In this document: one piece after another, positions 10,605 to 23,928 of the stretch
Numbering within the stretch: the first letter of the stretch is position 1
Layout of the letters: each line of letters begins with the position of its first letter
IMG/VR virus record: IMGVR_UViG_3300042507_005051
Coordinates: 1 to 30,180 of that record
From: a virus
Length of the DNA stretch: 30,180 nt
Reading direction: 5' to 3' (one strand)
Notes under the pieces: generated by a model
What the model was told of the DNA's origin: nothing
Database searches by the model: none
What the model saw: only the letters and a program-made list of their open reading frames with translations
Position numbers and translations under genes: made by a program

Positions 10605-11559
10605 CTTTGGTATTTTCCTCCCGGATCTGTGCAAACGTTTTCGGCTGCGACGGCTTACGCTCCGCCGCTGTTCGGTCGCTGTTCAGCCAATCGGCTTGGA
10701 AGCCCTCCCATTGCCGTTCCGCCGCAGTCCGGATCGCCTCATCGGCAGACATGCCAGCCTTGGCCGCTTCGCGTCGGATTCGCACCAGGACGGATTCCGT
10801 AACCGGCTTGCGTCGGCACGCCGTCCAGTCTCGCCAGTGGTGTTCGGAAATGTCTTCGGGTCGATCAATTGCAACCGATGGACGCCGTGTTCGCTTTTGA
10901 GAGACAGAGGCTAGCGGCTCTGCCGCGTATGTATTTTTAGGATCAGGATCAGGGCTAGGGTTAGGGCTAGGGATAGGATCAGGAACAGGACTAGGGTAGA
11001 TGGTTCCCCCTGTTTGTCCCCCGATCGTACCCCCGTTTATCCCCTGATCGTATCCCTGTTTATCCCCCGGTCGTACCCCCGATTGTCCCCCGATCGTACC
11101 CCCATTTATCCCCTCGATTATCCCACGATCGTACCCCTCTTTATATCCCACTTTATACCCCTCTTTATATCCAGCCTTAGGGGATAGTGAGTCGATCGAT
11201 TCTTCAATCGGCAAGTCGTCCATGTCGTCTAGGTCAGCAGGAACCGTGACCCAGTAGAGGCCAGCGGTTCGCTTGCCGCATCCTCGATACTGAAGCCAAC
11301 CAGAGTCGATAGCTCGCTTCCTAGCTTTGTCAAACGTCTCCCATTTGGCGAAGCCAAGCGTCTCCATCAGTTGCGAGTTAAAGAACCGAACCGGCCCTCG
11401 GTAGCGTGCCGCGTCTTCGGTGTGTAGCACGACGGCGACCAAGCAAAAAGCATCCCGCCCCATGTCCGCCGCCGCACTCGATTTGTGCATCTTGCGGAAG
11501 GCTTTGTGGGCGAAAAACTTATCCCGCTTTGGGTAGTCGATCTTAGGAGGATCGGTCAT
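10474..11559 (-). CDS. Replication initiator with internal repeat region (361 aa)
   Basis: Residues about 10-110 (KRDKFFAHKAFRKMHKSSAA ... FNSQLMETLGFAKWETFDKA) form a winged-helix domain as in phage replication initiators. Residues 130-180 have Gly every fourth position (GYKEGYKVGYKEGYDRGIIE), followed by a Pro-rich linker (PSPVPDPIPSPNPSPDPDP). The C-terminal part from about 225 is helical (EHHWRDWTACRRKPVTESVL). The linker is encoded by 12-bp and 6-bp repeats, recalling lambda O, where origin iterons lie inside the gene. Start ATG 11559 directly follows the pseudoknot leader; the longer upstream frame would read through it. Initiator function is inferred from architecture and neighbours. 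Confidence 0.68.
   Translation of the reverse strand: MTDPPKIDYPKRDKFFAHKAFRKMHKSSAAADMGRDAFCLVAVVLHTEDAARYRGPVRFFNSQLMETLGFAKWETFDKARKRAIDSGWLQYRGCGKRTAGLYWVTVPADLDDMDDLPIEESIDSLSPKAGYKEGYKVGYKEGYDRGIIEGINGGTIGGQSGVRPGDKQGYDQGINGGTIGGQTGGTIYPSPVPDPIPSPNPSPDPDPKNTYAAEPLASVSQKRTRRPSVAIDRPEDISEHHWRDWTACRRKPVTESVLVRIRREAAKAGMSADEAIRTAAERQWEGFQADWLNSDRTAAERKPSQPKTFAQIREENTKDVFRRFEESGQLKAIFDAVNGASTVPPSGGERGDATGLLLGPG
10929..10996. repeat. Degenerate 6-bp tandem repeat encoding a Pro-rich linker
   Basis: About eleven units of AGGATC/AGGGCT/AGGGTT/AGGAAC/AGGACT run in tandem. On the minus strand they encode alternating Pro and Ser/Asp/Asn residues within the initiator. Unit variation is mostly at positions 4-6, which alternate codons and keep a proline every second residue. 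Confidence 0.75.
11022..11137. repeat. Five iterons (CGATCGTACCCC type), candidate replication origin
   Basis: Exact CGATCGTACCCC is found at 11022-11033, 11091-11102 and 11126-11137. One- or two-base variants lie at 11045-11056 (TGATCGTATCCC) and 11068-11079 (CGGTCGTACCCC). Spacings are 23, 23, 23 and 35 bp. The iteron falls in all three reading frames of the initiator gene (read as GYDRG, GGTIG and GVRPG), so the DNA rather than the peptide is repeated. An AT-richer stretch (11138-11171, with TTTATATCC repeated) borders one side and could be the unwinding region. Initiator-gene origins are established for lambda O; their use here is inferred. Confidence 0.62.
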
Positions 11560-11577
11560 TGCTTTACCAAAAAAACA

Positions 11578-11656
11578 CCGCTGCCCGGATGCTTGACCGG
11601 CAATCGCAGAACGCGAATGAATCCGGGCAGCGGCTTGGTTTGTAGGCCGGTCAAGC
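11578..11656 (-). ncRNA. Pseudoknotted 5' leader of the replication initiator (class I)
   Basis: Two perfect inverted repeats are interleaved. CCGCTGCCCGGAT (11578-11590) pairs with 11621-11633 (13 bp), and GCTTGACCGGC (11591-11601) pairs with 11646-11656 (11 bp). Between them a small hairpin TCGC-agaac-GCGA (11604-11616) fits. In transcript order the layout is S1, 12 nt, S2, 19 nt with hairpin, S1', 0 nt, S2', then a U7-GGU stretch and the ATG at 11559. The -10 box ends at 11668, so the RNA would begin about five bases before S1. Same topology as 14116-14197, with different stem sequences. Confidence 0.72.
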
Positions 11657-11667
11657 CTATTTCGTAC

Positions 11668-11696
11668 ACTATAACAATCTGTCAACCTGTTCGCAA
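11668..11696 (-). promoter_or_regulatory. Promoter of the replication initiator with operator-like palindrome
   Basis: On the minus strand -35 TTGCGA (11691-11696), 17-base spacer, -10 TATAGT (11668-11673). Inside the spacer and -35 is an imperfect palindrome, TGTCAAC-CT-GTTCGCA (11680-11695, plus strand). It matches the perfect palindrome TGTCAAC-C-GTTGACA at 14219-14233 upstream of the helicase. The -35 directly abuts the stop codon of the methyltransferase gene. Confidence 0.6.
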
Positions 11697-12702: not shown

Positions 12703-14100
12703 TCATACACCTGCCTTTGATTTTAAGAAACTAGGAATCGTCGGAACCGCCGACGCCGATAAACCGACCCGCATCAACTCGGCTTGATTTCCCAAGCCAA
12801 ACTGCCTCACAACTTCCGCCATCGAGGCTTGCATCAAACCGTGATCGGCACCCTTTCGAGCGATGCTCTTTTCGATGTTCGCGTCTGCATCGCTGCCGAT
12901 GATGTGAACCTTCACGGGCCGCGTTTGACCAAATCTCCAAGACCTTCGAACGGCCTGATAATACTCTTCAAACGAAAACGAAAGCGACGCGAATACTTGC
13001 GTATTGCAAACCTGAAAGTTTAGCCCGACGCCAGCAATCGACGGCTTAGTCACAAGCACCGGAAACTGCCCTTCAGCAAAGCCCAAAAGTAGATCCTGCT
13101 TTTTCTTCTCCGGCATCGATCCGCGAACCTCAACAGCCCCGTCGACATGCTTCATCAACTCCGAAGATTCGTAATCGGTGTAGCACCAAACAATCGCCGG
13201 CCTCTCTGACTCACGGACAATCTCCGCAACTCGCTTAGCTCGTTCGGTGTTTGTCCGCCGCTTTTCTTCGTGGATGTTTGTCGCCGAAATCCCTTCGACG
13301 TCAAATAGAAAGCCATCGGCAACGCCATCATAGGCAACGCTCACAATGTGCCGCTCAACGGTCAGCGGTGGCAATATATAGCCGTCGTCACTTCCGCCAA
13401 GATCAGACGGACGCGACAAACAAACGGCCCACGAGGTTACCCATCGCCAAAAGTCCTTTTGAGCGTGCTTCTTTAGCCGGTAGCCACCTGCCTTCATGGT
13501 GTCGTTGATAAACCAACGCGACAGCATTTCGTTTGATGGCATGACTCCCAAGAAATCGGCGTGGTTACCCAGTTCTTTGTGGTCGTTGGGTGCCGGTGTT
13601 GCGGTACATGCCAATCGGTAGGGCGTTTCGCGATATGAGTCGATCAACTCTTGCTTGATCTTCCCGGTGAAATTTTTAAGTATCTGCGATTCGTCAAGCA
13701 CTACACCTGACCAAATCGAAGCGTCAAACTTGTGAAGCTTTTCGTAATTGACCAGGTTAATCCCGTCGACAATTTCGGCCCGCTCATCGACCACAGCAAT
13801 TGGCGTCTCGATGCCAAATTTTTCGGCCTCTCGTTTTGTTTGGGCCCGAATGCCAACTGGCGTATGAATGACAACCGGCCGCCGCGATCGTTTGCAAACC
13901 GCGTCCGCCCAGGCTAGTTGCTGTATCGTCTTACCTAGGCCGGTATCCTCAAACAAAGCCGCTCGGCCACGCTGTAGCGACCACTGTACGCATTTGGCTT
14001 GCCAGCCCTTGAGAGCTTTCGGAAGCTCGCTAACCGCAACCTCAAAGCCTAACGGCCTTGCCGATCGCACCTTCGATCGGATGAACTGTTCGTAATCCAT
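12703..14100 (-). CDS. SNF2-type DEAD/DEAH-box helicase (465 aa)
   Basis: Superfamily 2 motifs are in order. Motif I is DTGLGKT (residues 52-58), motif II DES at 136-138 (an SNF2-like DExx variant), motif III TATPAPND at 166-173. Motif V lies in TKPSIAGVGLNFQ (351-363) and motif VI is QAVRRSWRFGQ at 382-392. An N-terminal Q-like region (LKGWQAKCVQWSLQRGRAAL) precedes motif I. The enzyme translocates on dsDNA and is common in phages beside a methyltransferase, as here. ATG 14100 follows a pseudoknotted leader with only a weak GGTG as SD, so translation may depend on leader structure. Confidence 0.9.
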   Translation of the reverse strand: MDYEQFIRSKVRSARPLGFEVAVSELPKALKGWQAKCVQWSLQRGRAALFEDTGLGKTIQQLAWADAVCKRSRRPVVIHTPVGIRAQTKREAEKFGIETPIAVVDERAEIVDGINLVNYEKLHKFDASIWSGVVLDESQILKNFTGKIKQELIDSYRETPYRLACTATPAPNDHKELGNHADFLGVMPSNEMLSRWFINDTMKAGGYRLKKHAQKDFWRWVTSWAVCLSRPSDLGGSDDGYILPPLTVERHIVSVAYDGVADGFLFDVEGISATNIHEEKRRTNTERAKRVAEIVRESERPAIVWCYTDYESSELMKHVDGAVEVRGSMPEKKKQDLLLGFAEGQFPVLVTKPSIAGVGLNFQVCNTQVFASLSFSFEEYYQAVRRSWRFGQTRPVKVHIIGSDADANIEKSIARKGADHGLMQASMAEVVRQFGLGNQAELMRVGLSASAVPTIPSFLKSKAGV

Positions 14101-14115
14101 GAAAACACCAAAAAG

Positions 14116-14197
14116 CCACCGGCGGCGCGGCGTAGCGGGCCAGCCTAGATAGGCACGAAGGCACCGCCGGTGGTTGTGTTGTTGGTAGCCCGCTACG
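14116..14197 (-). ncRNA. Pseudoknotted 5' leader of the helicase-methyltransferase operon (class I)
   Basis: CCACCGGCGG (14116-14125) pairs with CCGCCGGTGG (14164-14173), and CGTAGCGGGC (14131-14140) with GCCCGCTACG (14188-14197). Both are perfect 10-bp stems, interleaved A-B-A'-B'. A hairpin GCCT-agat-AGGC (about 14143-14154) lies between B and A'. In RNA order: S1, 14 nt (ACCAACAACACAA-like), S2, 23 nt with hairpin, S1', 5 nt, S2', then CUUUUUGGUGUUUUC and the ATG at 14100. The proposed promoter places the RNA start within a few bases of S1. Confidence 0.72.
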
Positions 14198-14206
14198 GCT
14201 TCTAAA

Positions 14207-14234
14207 ATGTTACCGCACTGTCAACCGTTGACAA
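14207..14234 (-). promoter_or_regulatory. Promoter of the helicase operon with a perfect palindromic operator
   Basis: On the minus strand -35 TTGTCA (14229-14234), 16-base spacer, -10 TAACAT (14207-14212). The plus-strand palindrome TGTCAAC-C-GTTGACA (14219-14233) covers the -35 and spacer with perfect 7-base half-sites. The stop codon of the 60-aa gene (14221) lies inside it. A related palindrome is placed similarly at 11680-11695. Confidence 0.55.
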
Positions 14235-15075: not shown

Positions 15076-15686
15076 CAGAATGGCGTGTCCGCAATCATGT
15101 TGACCGGCTTACCGTCAGCATCGACGGCCGATGCTAGTTCGCGAAACTCTGGCGACTGCCGGATCTCTTCCTTCATCCTGTCCGGAAGCGACTCAAAAAC
15201 CAGCGGATCAAACTCATCTGGCGATAAGCTAAAAAACAAGTGCGGCTCGCTTGTCGCTGGTGCTTTCATGCCCTTCGGAAGCCTCGCGATGTTCTGCACG
15301 TTGGCATAAGTTTTTCCGTTTGGCGATTCCGCATGTATCACATTCAGCATACAGCCTACCGAAAGGATCCTTCGCACTTCCCAGGTGCCAAGCTCTTCAT
15401 CGGTAAACTTCTGGCCTCGCCAGCTTTCGAGGTCGCGGCGGAAAGTCGCCTTTTCGTTCGTCGAAAGATTGTAGGTCTTTCCCATCTTGAACGGCTTTCC
15501 GTCGCTTTGCTTTTCTTCTGCAATCTCCCAAACAATGCGAATCTTGCGGCGAAAAACCTCCGGCTTTCCTTCGTAGCTCTCAGCCTGCGTTCCGAGGTCG
15601 ATCACGGCACAACATACCGCGACGTGATTGCCTTCCGGGCATCGTTCGTAATTCGACGATTCGTTTTTCGGTACAACTAGGGGCAT
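15075..15686 (-). CDS. NGO0469-family phage ssDNA-binding-type protein (203 aa)
   Basis: The order GNHVAVCCAVIDLGTQ, FRRKIRIVWEIAEEKQSDG, NEKATFRRDLESWRGQKFT and GCMLNVIHAESPNGKTYANV is that of the phage NGO0469 (DUF669-related) family, thought to act as OB-fold ssDNA-binding replication proteins. The C-terminus is acidic and ends VNMIADTPF, reminiscent of the acidic tip ending in Phe in single-stranded DNA-binding proteins. It is preceded by its own pseudoknotted leader (15712-15775) with AGAAGG before the ATG. A self-regulating RNA-binding role is possible, as for T4 gp32, but is inference. Confidence 0.75.
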   Translation of the reverse strand: MPLVVPKNESSNYERCPEGNHVAVCCAVIDLGTQAESYEGKPEVFRRKIRIVWEIAEEKQSDGKPFKMGKTYNLSTNEKATFRRDLESWRGQKFTDEELGTWEVRRILSVGCMLNVIHAESPNGKTYANVQNIARLPKGMKAPATSEPHLFFSLSPDEFDPLVFESLPDRMKEEIRQSPEFRELASAVDADGKPVNMIADTPF

Positions 15687-15711
15687 CTGTAAACCTTCTG
15701 TAAAGTGTTGA

Positions 15712-15775
15712 AATAACGCCGCTGCATTGGCGGCAAAGGCCGTGCGGGACTCGCACCCGCGACGCTATTCGGCCT
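15712..15775 (-). ncRNA. Pseudoknotted leader of the ssDNA-binding-type gene (class II)
   Basis: In transcript order AGGCCG (15770-15775) pairs with CGGCCT (15737-15742). Directly after the first strand, AATAGCGTCGC (15759-15769) pairs with GCGGCGTTATT (15712-15722), 11 bp with two G-U pairs. The strands are interleaved. A GGG/CCC hairpin with a 7-base loop fits between. UCAACAC follows the last stem, then AGAAGG and the ATG at 15686. The first stem overlaps the TAG stop of the upstream gene. The 15744-15760 part looks like a tRNA T-arm, but no tRNA can be built. Confidence 0.6.
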
Positions 15776-16082
15776 ATCGGTTTTCCTGGTAGTGCTTTGC
15801 CATGTTTCTCGCGTCGTGCTGGTTGCTGCAACTGCTGAACAACTCCCAGCGGCCCGTTCCGTCGATGTCGATTAGCACGTCTCGGCCGCTGTCTTGAAAT
15901 TGTGCCAACTGGTAACTAAGAACAATCCAGCCTTTGTGCACTTCGTCAAAAACCTCTGTCCACGTTAGTCCCGCGATGTAATCGGCTTCGCGGTCCGCTT
16001 GTGCAGCGGTCGTGTATTCGTCGGAATAAATTACGCTGTTGCTGTCTAGTCGGCTTGCAACTCGATAACGTCGCGGCTTCAT
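15774..16082 (-). CDS. Hypothetical protein (102 aa)
   Basis: ATG 16082 overlaps the previous TGA. The sequence YRVASRLDSNSVIYSDEYTT then ADREADYIAG and GWIVLSYQLAQFQDSGRDVL suggests a small alpha-beta protein. There is no membrane segment, and two cysteines only (Cys84 region). No family is recognised. Confidence 0.5.
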   Translation of the reverse strand: MKPRRYRVASRLDSNSVIYSDEYTTAAQADREADYIAGLTWTEVFDEVHKGWIVLSYQLAQFQDSGRDVLIDIDGTGRWELFSSCSNQHDARNMAKHYQENR

Positions 16083-21568: not shown

Positions 21569-21984
21569 CTCACCGCCTCGATTTTTCCCTGTCGTACCAA
21601 CGATTCGTAGAGTGCGATATGCCAATGTGCCAACCGATCGCGGCTGATCTTGCCGTTGTACGCTACAACCGGATAATCCTGAAGCTCACTAAAGCAAGCG
21701 ACGAACCGCCCGTACTTGTCTCGCTCGTCTCCGGCCTTCGTCTTGTAACTGCTGTAGCTATAAACCTTGCCGACTTCGAGCTTCGCGGCCAGCCATTCCC
21801 GCTGATACTTCGCGAGCGCTCTTAGCCGCGGGTCGGGGTCGTTCGTTTCGGCCGCGTCAATTCCGCGAAGCCGAAGCGGCTCACCGACTTGCCAAAGCCC
21901 GTAGCCTAAATCGATGTCAACGACGATCGTGTCGCCATCGACGATTCGAACGATGCGACAAGTGTATTCGCGAATTTCAAGCAT
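21565..21984 (-). CDS. Thermonuclease (SNase)-like nuclease (139 aa)
   Basis: The SNase signature is complete. VDGDTIVV lies at residues 15-22, LRLRGIDAAET at 37-47 (catalytic Arg40 and Glu46) and DKYGRFVA at 89-96 (Arg93). Asp16 and Asp43 would hold calcium. These nucleases cut DNA and RNA near the surface of an OB fold. There is no signal peptide, so it acts inside the cell, perhaps in host DNA breakdown. ATG 21984 follows a structured leader with CAGGGACAAC as SD region. Confidence 0.85.
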   Translation of the reverse strand: MLEIREYTCRIVRIVDGDTIVVDIDLGYGLWQVGEPLRLRGIDAAETNDPDPRLRALAKYQREWLAAKLEVGKVYSYSSYKTKAGDERDKYGRFVACFSELQDYPVVAYNGKISRDRLAHWHIALYESLVRQGKIEAVR

Positions 21985-22003
21985 GTTGTCCCTGTGTTGA
22001 AAA

Positions 22004-22082
22004 GCCGCCGCCGAATCACACGGAAGATCCCGATTTTTGCCGACGACGAATCGCCGGTATAGGATTCGGCTAGCGGCCTATC
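22004..22082 (-). ncRNA. Structured leader of the SNase-like gene (class II)
   Basis: The long-range stem GCCGC-UA-GCCGAAUC / GAUUCGGC-G-GCGGC (22063-22077 with 22004-22017) has 13 pairs and a small internal loop. It is followed by UUUUCAACAC and the SD. Between its strands is a 7-bp hairpin capped by UUCG (22040-22057). A 4-bp stem AUAG/CUAU (22078-22081 with 22059-22062) would make it a pseudoknot; that part is weak. The RNA start expected from the promoter lies at the first strand. Confidence 0.55.
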
Positions 22083-22083
22083 A

Positions 22084-22111
22084 ACCATAGCACAATCGCC
22101 CGGCATGTCAA
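22084..22111 (-). promoter_or_regulatory. Promoter of the SNase-like gene
   Basis: On the minus strand a perfect TTGACA (22106-22111) is followed after 16 bases by TATGGT (22084-22089). It overlaps the stop of the SprT-like gene at 22108. Transcription would begin near 22077, at the first stem of the leader. Confidence 0.6.
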
Positions 22112-22404
22112 TTGTCCGGCCACCTAACGCCAAGCCGATCGAGAACGTCGGCAAGCTCTGTCGATGTCTGATCGATCCACGCTTCGGCCGCAAAATGGAT
22201 TTCGGATAGAGCGTGTTGGCATTCGTGAATGAGCGTGTCGACGATGTCTTTGGGCGATTGGTCGTATCGCACCAAGATCAGCCGCTTGTCCCAATAGCAC
22301 GCCCCACAATGCTTTGGCAGCCTCCTTCGCGTCACAAATTCAATCCGCCACTCACGGCCGCCGAGGGTGCAATCAATCGGCAGCGGCTTGCGTCGCTTTA
22401 CCAT
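22108..22404 (-). CDS. SprT-like zinc metalloprotein (98 aa)
   Basis: The zinc motif HECQH is at residues 60-64 within DIVDTLIHECQHALSEIHF, followed by a long helix (AEAWIDQTSTELADVLDRLG). The N-terminal half is beta-like (GREWRIEFVTRR) with CGAC at 33-36. This matches the small SprT-like / minimal gluzincin proteins of phages. Protease activity is plausible but unproven. ATG 22404 lies inside the end of the phosphoesterase gene and has GAGGG seven bases upstream. Confidence 0.72.
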   Translation of the reverse strand: MVKRRKPLPIDCTLGGREWRIEFVTRRRLPKHCGACYWDKRLILVRYDQSPKDIVDTLIHECQHALSEIHFAAEAWIDQTSTELADVLDRLGVRWPDN

Positions 22405-23366
22405 ATTTTGCCCTCGTGGATGCGGATGTTTTGTTCTTTCCAATGGCCTCTGCTGTCGAGGTCTAAAATCGCGAAGCCCTGGCTCCACTGATTAACAAGT
22501 GCGTAAGCCGGTGCCATGTCGCAAAGGCAGCCCGTCGAAAAACAAACCCACGTTTTCCGCTTGTCGCCCGATGTTTCGATGTGGGTCGAAGCTTGATGAA
22601 AGTGTCCCGCCATGGATGTCTGCCGCGTCCGCAACCACAGCCCACGGGCCGGATTGACCGCCGCGACAAGTCCCTTCGGCAGCTCGTGCCCGTGGTAGCA
22701 GTTGAGCGTGCCGAGCGTGTAGAGTTGCTTCGACGCGATCATCTGCCAAGATGAATCCAATCCCAACTGATCGGCAAGCACTTTGCACAAGTCCCATTTC
22801 GACATGCCGATCATCTGCGGCGCGTTTTCGAATAGGTAGCTTTCGATCCGATCTTCGTGGTTGCCAATTTTGTAATAACAATCGCCTTTGAAAAACGGGC
22901 GAATGTCTTTCAACCAACCCGCCAGCGTCTTGATCTCTTCGTCGATGCTTCGAGCGTTTGGATCGCGCACAAAACGGCTCTGCTGGTAGGCGTCCAGCAT
23001 GTCGCCATTTAGGACTAGGTGGTCGCATTGCTCCTCGATGCCGTGCCGGACTGCTTCGTCAATCGCCGCCGGGCAATGATAAGGAAAATGGGCGTCGCTC
23101 AAAATCAGATAACGCCCCGGCTTTCGGATCGCAATTGTAGGTCGCGTCTTTCGCTTGGCTTTTGGGGCCCGAGGTATGACAGTGTTTTCGTCGGCTCGTT
23201 TTTTGTTCGCGTACGTTTCGCCGCGATGGTAGCGGATTAAATCGCGGGTCGACTCAAATGCCGTGAAGAGTGCAGGGTATCGCGCGACAAGAAACTTCGC
23301 GATCTCCCGCGTCGGTCGGTCAGGTGCCTCTGCTAGAGCGGCCCTGACTATATCGGCCTTTCGCAT
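22398..23366 (-). CDS. Calcineurin-like metallophosphoesterase (322 aa)
   Basis: The five metal-binding motifs are in order: D91-x-H93 (ILSDAHFPYH), GD121-122 (LVLNGDMLD), GNHE168-171, GHE225-227 (NCYHGHELPKG) and GHFH254-257. The first 60 residues look like a helical DNA-binding domain (RPTREIAKFLVARYPALFTA), as in phage forms of this family. Substrates may be DNA ends, cyclic nucleotides or phosphoproteins. ATG 23366 has GGAGG 6-7 bases upstream, after a promoter with TATAAT and a compact pseudoknot. Confidence 0.85.
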   Translation of the reverse strand: MRKADIVRAALAEAPDRPTREIAKFLVARYPALFTAFESTRDLIRYHRGETYANKKRADENTVIPRAPKAKRKTRPTIAIRKPGRYLILSDAHFPYHCPAAIDEAVRHGIEEQCDHLVLNGDMLDAYQQSRFVRDPNARSIDEEIKTLAGWLKDIRPFFKGDCYYKIGNHEDRIESYLFENAPQMIGMSKWDLCKVLADQLGLDSSWQMIASKQLYTLGTLNCYHGHELPKGLVAAVNPARGLWLRTRQTSMAGHFHQASTHIETSGDKRKTWVCFSTGCLCDMAPAYALVNQWSQGFAILDLDSRGHWKEQNIRIHEGKIW

Positions 23367-23381
23367 TCATGCCTCCGGTGT

Positions 23382-23421
23382 TGTAGATAAGACCGGCCTA
23401 CATGCCGGTGTAATCATTATA
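23382..23421 (-). ncRNA. Compact H-type pseudoknot at the transcript start before the phosphoesterase
   Basis: The minus-strand -10 TATAAT is perfect (23416-23421); the -35 is poor. About seven bases later the RNA would start with ACCGGC (23404-23409), which pairs with GCCGGU (23392-23397). The loop UGUAG (23398-23402) pairs with CUACA (23382-23386). Loop lengths are 1, 0 and 5, ideal for an H-type pseudoknot with stacked stems. ACACCGGAGG and the ATG follow. Confidence 0.58.
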
Positions 23422-23451
23422 GCCGGACGGATAAGCGGACCGCCACCCAAT

Positions 23452-23484
23452 AAAAAACCCGGCAGGTTTACAACGCCTGCCGGG
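23452..23484 (-). terminator. Strong Rho-independent terminator
   Basis: CCCGGCAGG and CCTGCCGGG (23458-23466 with 23476-23484) form a perfect 9-bp GC-rich stem with a 9-base loop, followed by six T on the minus strand. It lies 54 bases after the 129-aa gene and before the TATAAT at 23416. It separates the tail transcript from the next one. Confidence 0.9.
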
Positions 23485-23538
23485 CTTCGGGATCCCATTG
23501 CAAAGGGAAAATCATGCTACCAGATTCGCCGCGGGAAA

Positions 23539-23928
23539 TCAAGCGTCTGGGGTGTCCAGCCCTGCCGCGGCGATCTCGGCCGGCGTGGCACGGCGACATT
23601 GCGTCCAAGTCGTAATGGTTTTGCCATCGTTGGACAAAATGTAATAGCACTTTCTTGTTGCTTGCGGTGTAACAGCCGCAAGTTTTCGCGGCCCTGACCA
23701 TTCGTGGTCTTCGCAATCTCGCACCATCACCCACGGCCTCTGCCGTGCATCCTCGTCCGTGAGCGGAGGCTCGACGTATGGCAGGCCGTCCGTGGTGTTG
23801 TGGGTAATCATTGCCAAAAGTTTTTCTGTTAATTCTGCGCGACCAGAAACATAAACATCCAATCTATATAGGGCATAATGGGCTCGCCGAGCTTGCTTCC
23901 TTTGGTCATCTGTCAATCGTCTCTGCAT
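23539..23928 (-). CDS. Hypothetical protein, paralogue of the 133-aa gene at 14393 (129 aa)
   Basis: It shares the core DGLPYVEPPLTDEDARQRPW, VMVRDCED and the end CRRATPAEIAAAGL with the protein at 14393-14794; the N-terminal helix differs. The middle part (KCYYILSNDGKTITTWTQ) is beta-like. ATG 23928 has GAGG five bases upstream after an interleaved repeat region. It is the last gene before the 23452-23484 terminator. Function unknown. Confidence 0.62.
   Translation of the reverse strand: MQRRLTDDQRKQARRAHYALYRLDVYVSGRAELTEKLLAMITHNTTDGLPYVEPPLTDEDARQRPWVMVRDCEDHEWSGPRKLAAVTPQATRKCYYILSNDGKTITTWTQCRRATPAEIAAAGLDTPDA

Follow-up and report, generated by a model that had tools for sequence, protein, structure and literature searches.

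The window, the whole stretch of DNA analyzed here, is a 30,180-base phage record in IMG/VR with most of its genes on the minus strand. One of these genes encodes a metallophosphoesterase and is preceded by a short leader, named here for its predicted start at position 23409. The features of this locus, read in the direction of transcription, are as follows.

23452-23542, minus strand: unit upstream of the 23409 leader, with promoter TTGATT-17-TAGCAT, a hairpin (23507-23494), a terminator stem (23484-23476/23466-23458) and T6
23441-23447, minus strand: GGTGGCG block, a -35-like or activator site, identical in all 11 aligned rows while its flanks differ
23416-23421, minus strand (read 23421-23416): TATAAT -10 box within TCCGGCTATAAT, invariant in all relatives
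23392-23409, minus strand: 5'-terminal hairpin, stem ACCGGC/GCCGGU (23409-23404 with 23397-23392), loop AUGUAG
23382-23386, minus strand: CUACA, claimed as the 3' strand of a second stem and unsupported as such, being absent or unmatched in L003, L004, L010, L011 and L012
23371-23381, minus strand: Shine-Dalgarno region ACACCGGAGGC, invariant in relatives, with a 5-bp alternative pairing to the 3' arm of the hairpin
22398-23366, minus strand: metallophosphoesterase gene (Pfam PF00149, E 1.5e-5; phrog_221, E 5e-31)

The metallophosphoesterase gene is present, whole or nearly so, on eleven other contigs at 93-100% identity, and a twelfth contig carries a fragment. No DNA match for the 23409 region was found in GenBank phage records, and a leader of this type is absent from distant phosphoesterase relatives. 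A pattern search with CCGGCTATAAT plus ACCG was too unspecific as a query, and the recognizable leaders among the matches listed belong to the same phage group. Rfam returned sub-threshold matches only, none reaching the gathering score in the window or in five relative loci. The closest cellular relative of the phage helicase is found in a Planctomyces metagenome-assembled genome (MAG) at 54% identity, and on that basis a planctomycete host would be no more than a guess.

The 23409 leader has its own promoter and is placed behind the upstream terminator unit. The GGTGGCG block lies at a fixed distance of 19 nt upstream of the -10 box, and a start 7 nt past TATAAT would fall on A23409, where stem 1 begins. 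In all relatives the stem begins 5-6 nt past the invariant TATAAT. All six pairs are retained in nine distinct sequences, whose loops are 4, 5 or 6 nt long, and pairing is 100% over an alignment of eight distinct rows. Three kinds of hairpin occur: ACCGGC-AUGUA(G/A)-GCCGGU, ACCGGC-CGGA-GCCGGU and ACCGAC-AGGCC-GUCGGU. The last of these carries the one compensatory change, from G-C to A-U, which may be a single event spread via recombination. By itself stem 1 is worth -8 to -10 kcal/mol, and it shares with ompA-type 5' termini a stable hairpin with few unpaired 5' nucleotides, lying 0-2 nt from the predicted start. Hairpins with six perfect pairs start at 0.19% of window positions (58 per strand). 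This strand has two exact TATAAT boxes, and the chance of such a hairpin starting 5-7 nt past one of them is about 1%. The stem 1 hairpin was thus confirmed to be beyond chance.

The original prediction placed a pseudoknot exactly at this start. Its elements can all be read in the sequence: the -10 box at 23421-23416, the six-pair stem from A23409, the loop AUGUAG, and a loop segment UGUAG (23402-23398) complementary to CUACA (23386-23382), giving loop lengths of 1-0-5. The geometry is feasible and the second-stem pairs exist in the window, L006, L007 and L008. They are weakened in L009; L003 has CUACA without UGUAG, L011 has UGUAG without CUACA, and L004, L010 and L012 have neither, so that only 66% of cells pair across the relatives. 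An H-type pseudoknot has both helices conserved, and across relatives the 23409 leader conserves only the first. Additionally, exactly one of the 58 6-bp hairpins on each strand has such a 5-bp loop partner, which puts the second stem at chance level genome-wide. Because the second stem fails across relatives, the pseudoknot is unsupported, and we regard a functional one at the 5' end of this leader as very improbable. Judged from the alignments, the structure at 23409 is best read as a conserved 5'-terminal hairpin at the predicted start and not as a pseudoknot. The leader pseudoknot of phage T4 gene 32 is of the type originally described, a small phage leader pseudoknot; the 23409 leader differs from it in having no conserved second stem and no autoregulatory protein linked to it.

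The broader proposal of a structured 5' end fared better than its pseudoknot part, since the hairpin is kept 5-6 nt from the -10 box while its loop changes. Pyrophosphate removal and 5'-end-dependent nucleases act poorly on a 5' end that is base-paired. The phosphoesterase transcript would open directly with a hairpin of six pairs and have no functional pseudoknot; this hairpin most likely caps the mRNA against 5'-end-dependent decay. Shielding of this kind fits the conservation of the hairpin through changes of loop and the fixed distance from the -10 box. With its 3' arm held in the hairpin, the RNA would be unable to pair that arm with the Shine-Dalgarno sequence, leaving the ribosome site free. 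Such 5'-end protection of the phosphoesterase mRNA is plausible.

This is an already known kind of device. Stem-loops at the 5' terminus that stabilize mRNA are established for ompA, papA and aprE (Emory 1992; Bouvet 1992; Bricker 1999; Hambraeus 2002; all cited in PMC3997798), and PMC7509114 is a further source for the parallel. The likeness lies in a hairpin at the 5' end or a few nucleotides from it, with an accessible Shine-Dalgarno sequence downstream. The 23409 leader differs in being a short phage leader of about 45 nt with an unrelated sequence. It offers a clean natural test of 5'-end protection, in which relatives swap the loop and keep the hairpin.

Two other readings of the same bases were weighed against 5'-end protection. 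The leader could be a translational switch, in which the 3' arm has two alternative partners: the 5' arm, leaving the ribosome site free, and ACCGGAGG, hiding it. Copies of ACACCGG lie at the 5' arm and at the Shine-Dalgarno sequence, the Shine-Dalgarno block is invariant, and the five-pair alternative occurs in all variants; for the GUCGGU lineages, an extended helix sequestering the Shine-Dalgarno sequence is predicted as the fold of lowest energy. Set against this, the hairpin is favored by about 4 kcal/mol in the other six variants, and the helix between the 3' arm and the Shine-Dalgarno sequence has no covariation and is reduced to a G-U pair in the GUCGGU lineages. We therefore rate the switch as unlikely. 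Less probable still is that ACCGGC-N-GCCGGT acts as DNA, as a repressor-binding operator located at the start site. The dyad is perfect, occupies +1 to +18, a classical repressor position, and is intact in relatives too, but its spacer varies among 4, 5 and 6 bp and its half-sites change, which a dimeric repressor would rarely tolerate. The variation in loop length disfavors an operator, and 5'-end protection is our preferred reading.

The unit at 23452-23542 is found in the window and most relatives; L006, L007 and L010 have an unrelated terminator instead. This unit could either insulate the 23409 leader or yield a short RNA. It has a kept promoter and would specify an RNA of about 65 nt with a T6 end (23542-23452). 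Complementarity between its two hairpin loops, UUUGCAA and UUGUAAA, makes it a possible kissing-loop small RNA.

The original prediction extended the same arrangement, and the same idea of end protection, to leaders at 11578, 14116 and 22004, designated leaders A, B and C here.

11679-11696, minus strand: operator-like dyad over the -35 region of the replication-gene promoter, TTGTCAAC-N2-GTTGACAA in relatives
11557-11673, minus strand: leader A, with -10 box TATAGT (11673-11668), a (11656-11646), b (11634-11621), hairpin c, a' (11601-11591) and b' (11590-11577)
11557-11575, minus strand: 3' end of leader A, with U7 (11575-11569) and ATG (11559-11557), before the replication gene
14098-14234, minus strand: leader B, with operator dyad (14234-14218), -10 box TAACAT (14212-14207), a (14197-14186), b (14173-14161) and hairpin c
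14098-14142, minus strand: 3' part of leader B, with a' (14142-14131), b' (14128-14116), U5 (14114-14110) and ATG (14100-14098), before the helicase
21982-22111, minus strand: leader C, with promoter TTGACA-16-TATGGT, a long outer stem (22077-22063/22017-22004) around two hairpins, U4 and an endonuclease start

Stems do begin about 0-5 nt past the predicted starts in these leaders, but they are of a different kind, large and ended by U-tracts. End protection is a weak explanation for them: the U-tracts lie just before the start codons and point to termination or attenuation. In leader C, 97% of cells are paired in six sequences with little covariation, and the six-sequence comparison revealed no pseudoknot. 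By its sequence, leader C is a branched terminator that pairs well and varies too little for proof.

Leaders A and B share an a-b-a'-b' layout whose second helix leads into a U-tract shortly ahead of the start codon; as in attenuators, promoter and start codon are thus separated by a GC-rich hairpin with a U-tract behind it. The scan for this architecture looked for a hairpin b/b' ended by a U-tract, with a' inside its loop and a, the partner strand, upstream. Leaders A and B scored 43 and 44, while the maximum of 15 dinucleotide shuffles was 34. Over 0.98 Mb of mostly related loci, scores above 38 were found only in relatives of A and B, and a score of 38 in L137 looks incidental. In a further 1.3 Mb including many unrelated contigs, only A and B relatives reached 36.

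Leader A satisfies comparison at both helices, each being conserved with covariation as in an H-type pseudoknot. Its alignment has 24 pairs, with 97.5% of cells paired (23-43% in slid controls), and 12 of the 24 have changes on both sides (4 of 11 in helix a, 8 of 13 in helix b). Relatives fall into three lineages of stem sequence, each keeping the U-tract at U5-U7. In leader B the a and b stems never vary, so covariation is silent on them, and the inner hairpin c varies with compensation. Both helices are strong on their own, a/a' at -26 to -31 kcal/mol and b/b' at -33 to -36 kcal/mol, and the gap from a' to b' is 0-2 nt. Additionally, an N1 version of the TTGTCAAC/GTTGACAA dyad lies at 14234-14218, over the -35 region of leader B. 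The dyads at A and B have zero to three mismatches, versus mostly four in the background.

These features suggest an order of events. Directly past a promoter with the common operator-like dyad, the RNA would form helix a/a'. The U-tract-ended helix b/b' would form next, and the two would make a pseudoknot beside the start codon, a proposal whose helices rest on covariation in the leader that begins at 11656. Helix a/a' would be complete before b' is transcribed; closure of the terminator would then force a single-stranded linker of 11-15 nt to span the length of both helices. Strain in this linker may weaken or delay the pairs nearest the U-tract and so set readthrough; a/a' and b/b' could also be alternatives in time rather than simultaneous. 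For leaders A and B, transcription attenuation is the most likely role, a/a' holding back or straining helix b/b' of the terminator; structures that end in U-tracts just before the start codon point this way. As a joint account, a hairpin that caps the mRNA at 23409 and attenuators at A and B form the best explanation we have, held with about even confidence.

The known rep attenuators of pT181 and pIP501 are similar in having a replication-gene leader with a terminator just before the start codon, and the pIP501 promoter is also under a repressor, CopR (PMC5703833). They differ in the pairing scheme: strand a of leaders A and B finds its partner a' within the loop of the terminator and not in the terminator's own arm. 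Additionally, no antisense promoter was recognized by eye in either leader. HK022 put RNA and the lambda pR'/6S leader are likewise structured RNAs at phage transcript starts near terminators, with a different layout. A scan of 30 proteins revealed no antitermination gene. Leaders A and B are well-supported terminator leaders with a pseudoknot layout, and would be a new form of attenuation should transcription assays agree. We suggest tentatively, and well short of even confidence, that they belong to an attenuator class not described before. In it, an upstream helix would knot the hairpin of the terminator: a/a' would fold first, the linker of 11-15 nt would restrict closure of the basal terminator pairs, and readthrough into phage replication genes under a common operator would thereby be tuned.

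Leader A behaves as a module, because different proteins follow it in different relatives (L018, L062 and L161 versus L014); the start of the downstream gene appears to have been exchanged behind a kept leader. This would also suit a main role for leaders A and B as small, stable regulatory RNAs terminated at the U-tract, with downstream expression as incidental readthrough: promoter, compact structure and terminator amount to a complete RNA gene of about 95 nt. Yet the module stands directly before a same-strand start codon in every relative examined, the downstream gene is replication-type or a helicase where it can be named, and no other promoter was seen between them, which makes a primarily short-RNA role rather unlikely compared with attenuation. 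If attenuation holds, RNA folding order would be tied directly to how phage replication genes are expressed, and the three lineages with different stem sequences are ready-made comparisons. The putative pseudoknotted attenuators are a more interesting part of the window than the 23409 hairpin.

Several other sites were observed. Inside the O-like replication gene, 11007-11149 (plus coordinates) contains iteron-like tandem repeats of 23 nt and 12 nt of the CCCCCGATCGTACCCCCGTTTATCC type, which suggests, by analogy with lambda O, an origin within the gene. A T-arm-like GCGGGTGCGAGTCCCGC lies near a gene end at 15670-15800; ARAGORN finds no tRNA in the window or relatives, and this is possibly a tRNA remnant or an attachment-site relic. 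At 6634-6575, a promoter (TTGACA-16-TAGAAT) is accompanied by CCGGCGTACTC...GAGTCGCC pairing across the Shine-Dalgarno sequence, nearly unchanged in relatives. Lastly, promoters at 24331-24290 and 21321-21280 have a common box past the -10, GGAGTC-G/A-GACA, and A/C-rich leaders; these leaders look unstructured and the promoters look like a different class.
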